From positions 1,723,300-1,787,299 of the forward strand of contig OX639990.1 of NCBI GenBank assembly GCA_951828535.1: 64,000 nucleotides of DNA, read 5' to 3'. The stretch comes from an uncultured Candidatus Entotheonella sp. GTDB lineage: Bacteria > Tectomicrobia > Entotheonellia > Entotheonellales > Entotheonellaceae. Shown here one piece after another: positions 39,829-41,962 of the stretch. The translations under genes were made by a program, and so were the position numbers. The notes below the pieces were generated by a model, which was not told where the DNA came from, did not search any database, and saw only the letters and a list, made by a program, of their open reading frames with translations. Position 1 is the first letter of the stretch, and every line of letters begins with the position of its first letter.

Positions 39829-40091
39829 GGGTGCGAACTCCTTAAGCAAATCGGTACGGGTTGGTAGCAAATCGCCCAGCCGTGCGAACCGGCGGCGCAT
39901 CTAGCCAGAAGCCCTGTGGTCTGTCAAGGCCCAACCACGCCGCGATCATCGGTCAACGGGGAATAATCTCTTTGGCGTAATCGTTGCGGATGTCTGACAG
40001 CGCGCAGTTGTTGATAACCCGTTTGTCGGCCACCCCCGGGTGCCCCGGCAGCACGGGCAACACGAACCCTCGTCGCTTAGCAGGTGTGAAG

Positions 40092-40442
40092 ATGAAGACG
40101 AAACTGTACACCGTTTTGGTGCAGGCTATTCTGGCCTTTGCCATTGCTGGCGCTTTAGTGATTGGCGGCCATGCCGAGGAGGCGCCGAAAGATGAACCCG
40201 CGGCCGTTCCGGCGGCGACTCAGGAGCAGGAGCAACAACCCGATACAAGCGACATTTTCCAGGAGTGGCTGGACAACAACCACGAACTCGGCAAGGGCGA
40301 CACCGAGTGCCTCATGTGCGTTGGCTTCGGTGGCGGCTTCCGCTGCGGCATCGGCTGCGATGCAACCGGGCTGACGATTCACAAACCGGACGGATCGACG
40401 AATGCGGTATGCGGGCGCTGCGTGAAAGGAACGTGGCAATAG
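40092..40442 (+). CDS. Small exported cysteine-rich protein
   Basis: 116 residues from ATG 40092 (a GTG two codons earlier is possible). An N-terminal signal or anchor (LYTVLVQAILAFAIAGALVIGG) is followed by an acidic linker and a compact cysteine-rich end: CLMC, RCGIGC and CGRC. The pattern suggests a disulfide-bonded or metal-binding domain in the periplasm; no family was recognised. It ends at a strong bidirectional terminator shared with the convergent MoeB-like gene. Confidence 0.62.
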   Translation: MKTKLYTVLVQAILAFAIAGALVIGGHAEEAPKDEPAAVPAATQEQEQQPDTSDIFQEWLDNNHELGKGDTECLMCVGFGGGFRCGIGCDATGLTIHKPDGSTNAVCGRCVKGTWQ

Positions 40443-40466: not shown

Positions 40467-40515
40467 AAAAAGAAAGGGCCGGCGTGGGAAGCCACACGCG
40501 CGGCCCTTTCTTTTT
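40467..40515. terminator. Bidirectional intrinsic terminator
   Basis: AAAAAGAAAGGGCCG (40467-40481) is repeated in inverse at 40501-40515 with a GC-rich loop. The A run on one side and T run on the other allow termination of both convergent genes. Confidence 0.88.
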
Positions 40516-40530
40516 GTTCAACGCGACGTC

Positions 40531-41721
40531 TCAGCCACCCACCCCCACCGGCTCCGGAGCGGTGAGACCGCAGAGTTCCTCGTAATTGACCAATTCCGTA
40601 ATCGTGGGATTGTCGCCGCACAGCGGGCAATTCGGATCGCGCCGCAGGCGGATTTCGCGGAACGTCATGGCCAGCGAGTCGTACATCAGCAGGCGGCCGA
40701 CCAGGGGTTCTCCCTGTCCGACGATGAGCTTCACGGTTTCCGTCGCCTGCACCACACCAATGACCCCGGGCAAAACTCCCAGGACGCCGGCCTCGCTTCA
40801 CGAGGGCACCAGCCCCGGCGGCGGCGGCGTGGGAAACAGACAGCGATAGCACGGCCCTTCATGCGGCTTGAACACGCTCGCCTGTCCCTCAAACTGGAAA
40901 ATACTGCCGTGCACCACGGGCTTGCGCGCCAACACCGCGGCGTCGTTGACCAGATACCGCGTCGGGAAGTTGTCGCAGCCATCGACGATGATGTCGTACT
41001 CGGCGAACAGGTCCAGAACGTTATCGGTCGTCAGTCGCATGTTGTGGGCCTGCACGTTGACGTCCGGGTTGATCGCGTTGATGGCAATCTTGCCCGACTC
41101 GGTTTTGGGCATGCCGATGCGGTCATTGCTGTGCAGCACCTGGCGCTGCAGGTTGGACAGATCCACCACGTCGGCATCCACCAGGCCGAGCGTGCCGACA
41201 CCCGCGGCAGCGAGATACAGCGCGGCGGGCGAGCCGAGGCCGCCGGCGCCAACCAGCAGGACCTTGGCGTCCAGGAGTTTCCCCTGTCCCTTTTCGCCGA
41301 TCTGGGACAATAGGAAATGCCGGCTGTAGCGCTCGAGCTGCTCCGCACTGAGCTGCCGGTCCCGCTGAACGGGAAATCCGGCATCCTTCCAGCGGGTAAC
41401 GCCGCCGGCCATCGACGACACGTTTTCGTACCCCATTGAGCGCAGCACCTGAGCCGCCAGCAGCGAGCGAGCGCCGCCCGCACAGTAAACGATTATTTCC
41501 TTGTCGGTCTGCGGCACCTTGCTGGCCACTTGAAATTCGAGAAACCCGCGCGGAATGGCGACCGCCCCGTCGAGGTAGCCGGCGCGAACCTCGTCGTTCT
41601 CGCGTACGTCCAGGAGCACAAAGTCGTCACCGGGCTGGCCGCGCTCCTGCACCTCCTGCACGCTCACTTCCGGGATTTCCTGCCGCGCCGCGACAAGAAA
41701 ATCTTGCTGCGTCTTAGCCAT
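40531..41721 (-). CDS. moeB: Rhodanese-MoeB fusion with in-frame TGA, candidate selenoprotein
   Basis: Read through a TGA at 40798-40800, the gene encodes 396 residues. Residues 20-118 are a rhodanese domain with Cys80 (VYCAGGARS). Residues 125-396 are a ThiF/MoeB adenylating domain: ATP loop VGAGGLGSP (about 157-165), zinc cysteines 291/294 (CYRC) and 365/368 (CPLC). The TGA is codon 308 within PPPPGLVPS-x-SEAGVLGVLPG, precisely where homologues read PSCAEAGVLG, the crossover-loop cysteine (Cys187 of E. coli MoeB). Conserved sequence and frame continue after the TGA to a TAA/TGA at 40531. A SECIS-like hairpin follows. The protein would adenylate the C-terminal glycine of a MoaD/ThiS-like carrier and pass sulfur from the rhodanese. 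ATG follows AGGAGTTACGT. A nonsense mutation or sequencing error is the alternative. Confidence 0.82.
40763..40797 (-). promoter_or_regulatory. Candidate bacterial SECIS element
   Basis: Immediately after the TGA the transcript can form a hairpin. CCUGGG pairs with CCCGGG (one U-G pair), extended by two wobble pairs (U-G, G-U), around the 7-nt loop AGUUUUG. The loop starts 21 nt after the UGA and has G as its second base followed by U. Bacterial SECIS loops usually lie 16-37 nt after UGA with a guanosine among the first two loop positions, so this fits. It lies inside the coding sequence, as expected in bacteria. Confidence 0.6.
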
Positions 41722-41962
41722 ACGTAACTCCTAACAGTGCTGTCCGTCGAGCCAAACAGCCCATTGCCGATGCGTTCAAATGCGGATGCGGAAAGTGCGG
41801 TAACAATACCAAACAGGCGCTGGATGGCGCAATGTGCCGGAATCACCATGGCCCCCCGTTCAAGCGGCGGCGGCTGGATTCCGGGTCAAGGCCCGGGATG
41901 ACGCTTTGGGGCATTGGGCGGCGCAACTGGCCGCAAGTTCGGTGGACAGCGGATAACGCATG
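41722..41962. other. Intergenic region with REP-like palindrome
   Basis: 241 bp. At 41875-41904 the sequence GGATTCCGGGTCAAGGCCCG followed by GGATGACGC is a palindromic intergenic repeat of a style common in proteobacteria. No gene was found; the moeB promoter should lie at its left side. Confidence 0.5.

Follow-up and report, generated by a model that had tools for sequence, protein, structure and literature searches.

MoeB (COG0476) has been listed among predicted selenoproteins since 2005, when it appeared in a survey of the Sargasso Sea (Zhang and Gladyshev 2005); it followed in the GOS survey of 2008, and reviews of 2022 and 2026 list it in the same way. In the available portions of these sources, the listings consist of a COG or Pfam name with counts (11 and 19 sequences) and are sequence-based predictions only. 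The original prediction for the locus described here, which placed MoeB-like proteins in marine selenoprotein surveys, was correct on this point. Among the Cys-containing relatives, Uba4 takes its carrier as a thioester at Cys202, and the thioester is resolved by a rhodanese persulfide; under oxidising conditions, this Cys202 also keeps Urm1-COSH from becoming covalently attached to the enzyme. According to a recent review, the Uba4 thioester is helpful and not essential, as sulfur transfer to adenylated Urm1 goes on without it, and the bacterial MoeB and ThiF enzymes form no thioester with the carrier. The mycobacterial MoeZ serves both MoaD and CysO.

The present gene lies in the window, the whole 64,000-nucleotide stretch of DNA that was analysed, from an uncultured Candidatus Entotheonella sp. 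whose genome comprises a single contig of 3,617,904 bases (3.62 Mb). Upon translation, the gene forms a single reverse-strand frame with one internal TGA. Its features and those of its immediate surroundings are as follows.

40531..41721 (-): predicted rhodanese-MoeB/ThiF fusion selenoprotein gene of 396 residues, with ATG at 41719-41721 and stop TGA at 40531-40533 (translation, Pfam, NCBIfam).
40798..40800 (-): in-frame TGA (codon 308), where selenocysteine is predicted to take the place of the crossover-loop cysteine (translation, homologue alignment).
41383..41646 (-): rhodanese domain, residues 26-113, with active-site Cys80 within YCAGGARS (Pfam).
40624..41328 (-): ThiF/MoeB adenylation domain over residues 132-366; zinc cysteines 291, 294 and 365 lie inside it and Cys368 just outside (Pfam).
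40751..40796 (-): predicted bSECIS hairpin (fold, comparison with relatives).
41728..41732 (-): AGGAG ribosome-binding-like site, 6 nt 5' of the ATG (sequence).
40467..40515 (no strand assigned): two-way terminator-like hairpin (AAAAAGAAAGGGCCG...CGGCCCTTTCTTTTT) between the MoeB gene and the convergent ORF at 39984-40442 (sequence).

The Pfam ThiF match (PF00899, 288 bits) contains the TGA within it, and the NCBIfam model NF006444 (MoeB) covers residues 5-385 at 574 bits, above its cut-off of 449. One zinc CxxC pair (291/294) precedes the TGA and the other (365/368) follows it. The original prediction had described a frame open on both sides of this one TGA, an N-terminal rhodanese with Cys80, and a MoeB-family sequence that resumes after the TGA and includes the second zinc pair; its coordinates and residues agree with the translation, and the domain models and homologues bear out the remainder. 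No carrier gene adjoins the MoeB gene within the window, and no conserved partner gene was found in the window or in the surroundings of L060, L061, L062, L066 and L096. The small convergent ORF (39984-40442, +), which has the two-way hairpin in common with the MoeB gene, is Cys-rich with a C-terminal CLMCVGFGGGFRCGIGCDATG...CGRC, and gave no NCBIfam match.

The position of the TGA had been taken for the conserved cysteine of MoeB/Uba4-type activators, and the alignment upholds this: column 308 corresponds to Cys187 of E. coli MoeB and to the catalytic Cys202 of Chaetomium Uba4. Across the fetched loci, in a query-anchored alignment, this one column holds TGA in 66 cases, Cys in 128 and Gly in one. 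Every TGA falls at column 308, and a second in-frame stop occurs in the aligned frame of none of the 66 Sec-form loci. The N-terminal rhodanese is present in 65 of these, the remaining one being a truncated match, and among the 65 the rhodanese Cys80 is kept in 63, the adenylation-site residues in all, the individual zinc cysteines in 63-65 and the second zinc pair in 63. The single Gly belongs to a rhodanese-MoeB protein of Polyangiaceae (L123), which has it in place of the crossover Cys; the family may thus not depend strictly on this Cys.

The TGA form is widely distributed. A search of 60 genomes recovered the fusion with exactly one TGA in nine, and with Cys and no stops in others, and within the collection searched, all five genomes of the window's phylum carry the TGA form. 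In a scan of named genomes, 80 loci were recovered, seven of them with TGA, from Poribacteria (3), Rokubacteria (1), Planctomycetota (2; L071 and L096) and Latescibacterota (1). Among Poribacteria, the fusion with one TGA occurs in 66 of 84 genomes, and no full-length Cys version of the fusion was found among the matches listed for these 84. Most of the Poribacteria with the TGA fusion also have a separate MoeB-type match, which is devoid of TGA and leaves the N-terminal rhodanese uncovered.

All four components of the selenocysteine pathway named in the original prediction are present in the genome. The selA gene (C1:3374799-3376175) is found directly upstream of selB (C1:3376202-3378091), selD is located at C1:3250621, and a tRNA-Sec with anticodon TCA (UCA) lies at C1:193160-193252 with a score of 73.9 bits. 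Among the Sec-form genomes searched, selA was found in 13 of 15, and the two without it are fragmented assemblies. It is also found in most genomes with a Cys-form fusion (handles G000-G108), and the presence of selA was accordingly dropped as a discriminator of the two forms. The rhodanese-MoeB fusion and the use of Sec thus seem associated, although common taxonomy or the presence of molybdenum-dependent formate dehydrogenase could account for this.

Downstream of the UGA, the window gene can form an apical stem of CCUGGG and CCCGGG (40778-40783 and 40765-40770) closed by the loop AGUUUUG, which starts 20 nt past the UGA; in both loop distance and the 6-bp apical stem, this hairpin is compatible with the published bSECIS model. 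Other Sec forms adopt either the register of the window gene, with its 7-nt loop, or a second one whose loop has 6 nt (CUGGG CGUGCU CCCAGG). The 6-bp stem is found at 15/15 Sec sites versus 16/72 Cys sites, a comparison that is partly circular because both registers were defined after viewing the same sequences. All 15 Sec genes likewise have an apical stem of 6 bp or more that is compatible with the bSECIS model, as compared with 15% of the other codons within these genes, and the Leu codon at +6 is CTG in 15/15 Sec versus 14/72 Cys forms. In a Poribacteria hold-out, the stem occurs at 36/36 distinct Sec sites and at 1/40 Cys paralogue sites, where codon +6 is often Phe or Ile and the stem is weakened by that alone.

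A stronger control than this hold-out is the synonymous entropy of 144 conserved four- or six-fold codons. Among 54 Poribacteria Sec genes, codons +5 to +11 make up seven of the eight lowest values, with a mean of 0.24 bits versus 1.63 elsewhere, while 40 Cys paralogues show no dip over the same codons (1.69 versus 1.71 bits). In the window's phylum, the uncommon codons GGA (+7) and GTT (+8) are retained in four of four distinct lineages. This synonymous freeze in the Poribacteria relatives, absent in the Cys paralogues, points to selection on the SECIS beyond that on the protein sequence. The energy of the hairpin relative to synonymous shuffles was not significant (mean z -0.80 for Sec and -0.40 for Cys; p 0.09, p-values in these tests being indicative only, as the sequences are related), because the LGVLPG peptide already encodes four of the six stem pairs. 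RNAalifold over all Sec sites recovered two pairs only, since the 7-nt and 6-nt loop registers coexist, and a search of Rfam gave no match to a SECIS family.

Elsewhere TGA serves as an ordinary stop, as it does at the end of this very gene, and it could be supposed that the product is truncated to residues 1-307, or that the gene has decayed or been misread. The homologues, however, all continue in the conserved frame past the TGA, the second zinc pair being retained by 63 of 65 Sec forms, and do not pass into the unrelated sequence that the original prediction had named as a sign against it; the synonymous sites past the TGA are constrained, and the TGA itself is kept across several phyla. 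A read error is excluded because the same TGA occurs in many independent assemblies, and a true stop is, on the whole, very improbable. A genome-wide reassignment of TGA to another amino acid, or readthrough without selenium, would explain why the frame is open if the TGA is read, and nothing else favours it. It is hard to reconcile with a TGA that terminates the same gene, with the one TGA per homologue found invariably at the Cys column, with the complete Sec pathway of the genome, or with the conserved hairpin, and it is given scarcely any weight here. The comparative evidence makes it almost certain that codon 308 is read as selenocysteine.

The top structural matches of the protein are E. 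coli MoeB and ThiF. In an AlphaFold model, pLDDT is below 50 at residues 300-315 and so no geometric claim is made at Sec308. A search of the genome for ThiF domains returned the MoeB fusion as the sole match above cut-off; a second E1 may nonetheless exist, because the estimated completeness is 92%. Six MoaD/ThiS-like carriers (PF02597 matches) with C-termini at or near GG are encoded in the genome. One of them adjoins thiG (ThiS, ending in GGG), one adjoins moaE (MoaD), and two further carriers lie beside molybdopterin hydroxylase-type genes. The carriers of L142 (G000:C1:338132-338362, -), L141, L143 and L144 have residues past the GG, the MoaD ending in SGGYGCSASRQNP and the others in AGGRR or GGV; a trimming protease may be needed before carriers of this kind are activated. 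The protein is very probably a sulfur-carrier E1, and there is similarly high confidence that the gene product is a selenocysteine-containing one. Because no other ThiF-family E1 was recovered, its most likely substrates are MoaD (for molybdopterin), ThiS (for thiamine) and further carriers; such a generalist role is the simplest reading and recalls mycobacterial MoeZ.

By the comparative evidence, UGA 308 is decoded as Sec under the direction of the downstream bSECIS and the genome's SelA, SelB, SelD and tRNA-Sec. In the mechanism proposed, the adenylation domain would adenylate the C-terminal glycine of MoaD/ThiS-type carriers, and the acyl group would pass to the crossover-loop selenolate of Sec308, with which it would form a selenoester. 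The persulfide of rhodanese Cys80, supplied in cis, would displace the acyl group from Sec308, and reduction would free the thiocarboxylated carrier. Overall, this would follow the scheme known from Uba4, except that Sec replaces Cys and the rhodanese is N-terminal. The selenoester step itself might equally well be right or wrong. It is not required, because MoeB and ThiF are reported to form no thioester and Uba4 can do without one, and for the same reason the “more reactive nucleophile” of the original prediction is conjectural. Alternatively, Sec308 could be a redox or self-protection residue and not an acyl acceptor, resolving oxidised (acyl-disulfide or conjugated) thiocarboxylate carriers and guarding the E1 against its own product; the protein would still be a selenoprotein. 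This role would fit the ability of Uba4 Cys202 to prevent covalent Urm1-COSH attachment under oxidation, sulfur transfer to adenylated Urm1 without a thioester, and the observation that Sec in bacteria usually stands in for redox-active Cys (PMC1794560, in the portion available). Uba4 Cys202 nevertheless forms the thioester as well, so that the two roles are compatible, and a purely protective Sec308 appears possible but somewhat doubtful.

The peptide that follows Sec308 bears on how such a residue might come and go. The codons of LGVLPG (CUN GGN GUN YUN CCN GGN) determine four of the six pairs in the apical stem, a G-U opens the loop, and the spacing from the UGA is right. The motif may therefore be a ready-made SECIS lying after the cysteine, which would explain repeated Sec/Cys swaps in this E1 family, a proposal made tentatively and just short of even likelihood. 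If it is true, the conversion of a Cys enzyme to a selenoprotein would take no more than a TGY-to-TGA substitution together with a few silent ones. Among Cys homologues, 59% of genes already have a bSECIS-compatible stem of 6 bp or more at the site, versus 18.5% of other codons; a competing reading of these stems is that they are fossil SECIS elements inherited from Sec ancestors.

In a tree of 102 fusion proteins, built after column 308 had been taken out, no fewer than four changes of the Sec/Cys label are required, and well-supported branches force all of them. A single Sec clade was rejected (AU p 2e-7). The rokubacterial L066 (Sec) and L088 (Cys) form a fully supported sister pair in which the genome of the Cys member retains selA, which suggests a loss of Sec, while the placement of L096 and L098 among Cys forms suggests gains of Sec. 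In each case, it is the direction of change that we infer.

Two other rhodanese-like ORFs in the genome bear an in-frame TGA. The first, a stand-alone ORF (L021 1471-1900; G000:C1:2974747-2975103, +), has it at the active-site position (PIVTHUGGENRAV), with one-TGA matches also in G001 and G002, and probably encodes another selenoprotein. The second (L027 1471-1900; G000:C1:1508277-1508594, +) has it in the active-site loop (VVLYUTCPHH), with a similar one-TGA match in G001.

The majority of selenoproteins are regarded as redox enzymes. An E1 with Sec at the position that holds the ubiquitin-like protein in Uba4 would bring selenium into acyl-transfer or sulfur-relay chemistry. Moreover, because the fusion appears to be the sole such E1 in the genome, the synthesis of both molybdenum cofactor and thiamine would depend on selenium supply. 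Automatic annotation that takes the TGA for a stop ends such genes at residue 307, so that both here and in most Poribacteria the E1 seems to be absent or cut short.

Among the systems already described, the Cys form of the rhodanese-MoeB fusion (PRK08762/NF006444) shares the architecture at about 50-63% identity but has Cys, not Sec, and keeps the 6-bp stem codons far less often. Uba4/MOCS3 and mycobacterial MoeZ likewise combine E1 and rhodanese in one chain, and the catalytic crossover Cys of Uba4/MOCS3 aligns with Sec308; in these proteins, however, the rhodanese is C-terminal and the residue is Cys, whereas the window protein has an N-terminal rhodanese and Sec. E. coli MoeB and ThiF possess the same adenylation fold and zinc CxxC pairs, with Cys187 of MoeB aligned to Sec308, but lack the rhodanese and are reported to form no thioester. 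The MoeB selenoprotein family (COG0476), in the portions of its listings available, is likewise a MoeB/ThiF-type E1 with Sec predicted at a Cys column and a SECIS-like stem-loop; the rhodanese domain goes unmentioned there, while the fusion, its phylum-wide presence, the Cys paralogues and the sole-E1 status are documented here. A search among openly available papers found no paper testing a Sec-MoeB or describing a rhodanese-fused Sec form. As a kind, then, Sec-MoeB is already known, a family predicted in 2005 and apparently never tested. What seems new is the rhodanese-fused architecture, its retention across a phylum, its situation as the sole E1, and an LGVLPG motif that encodes most of the SECIS hairpin.
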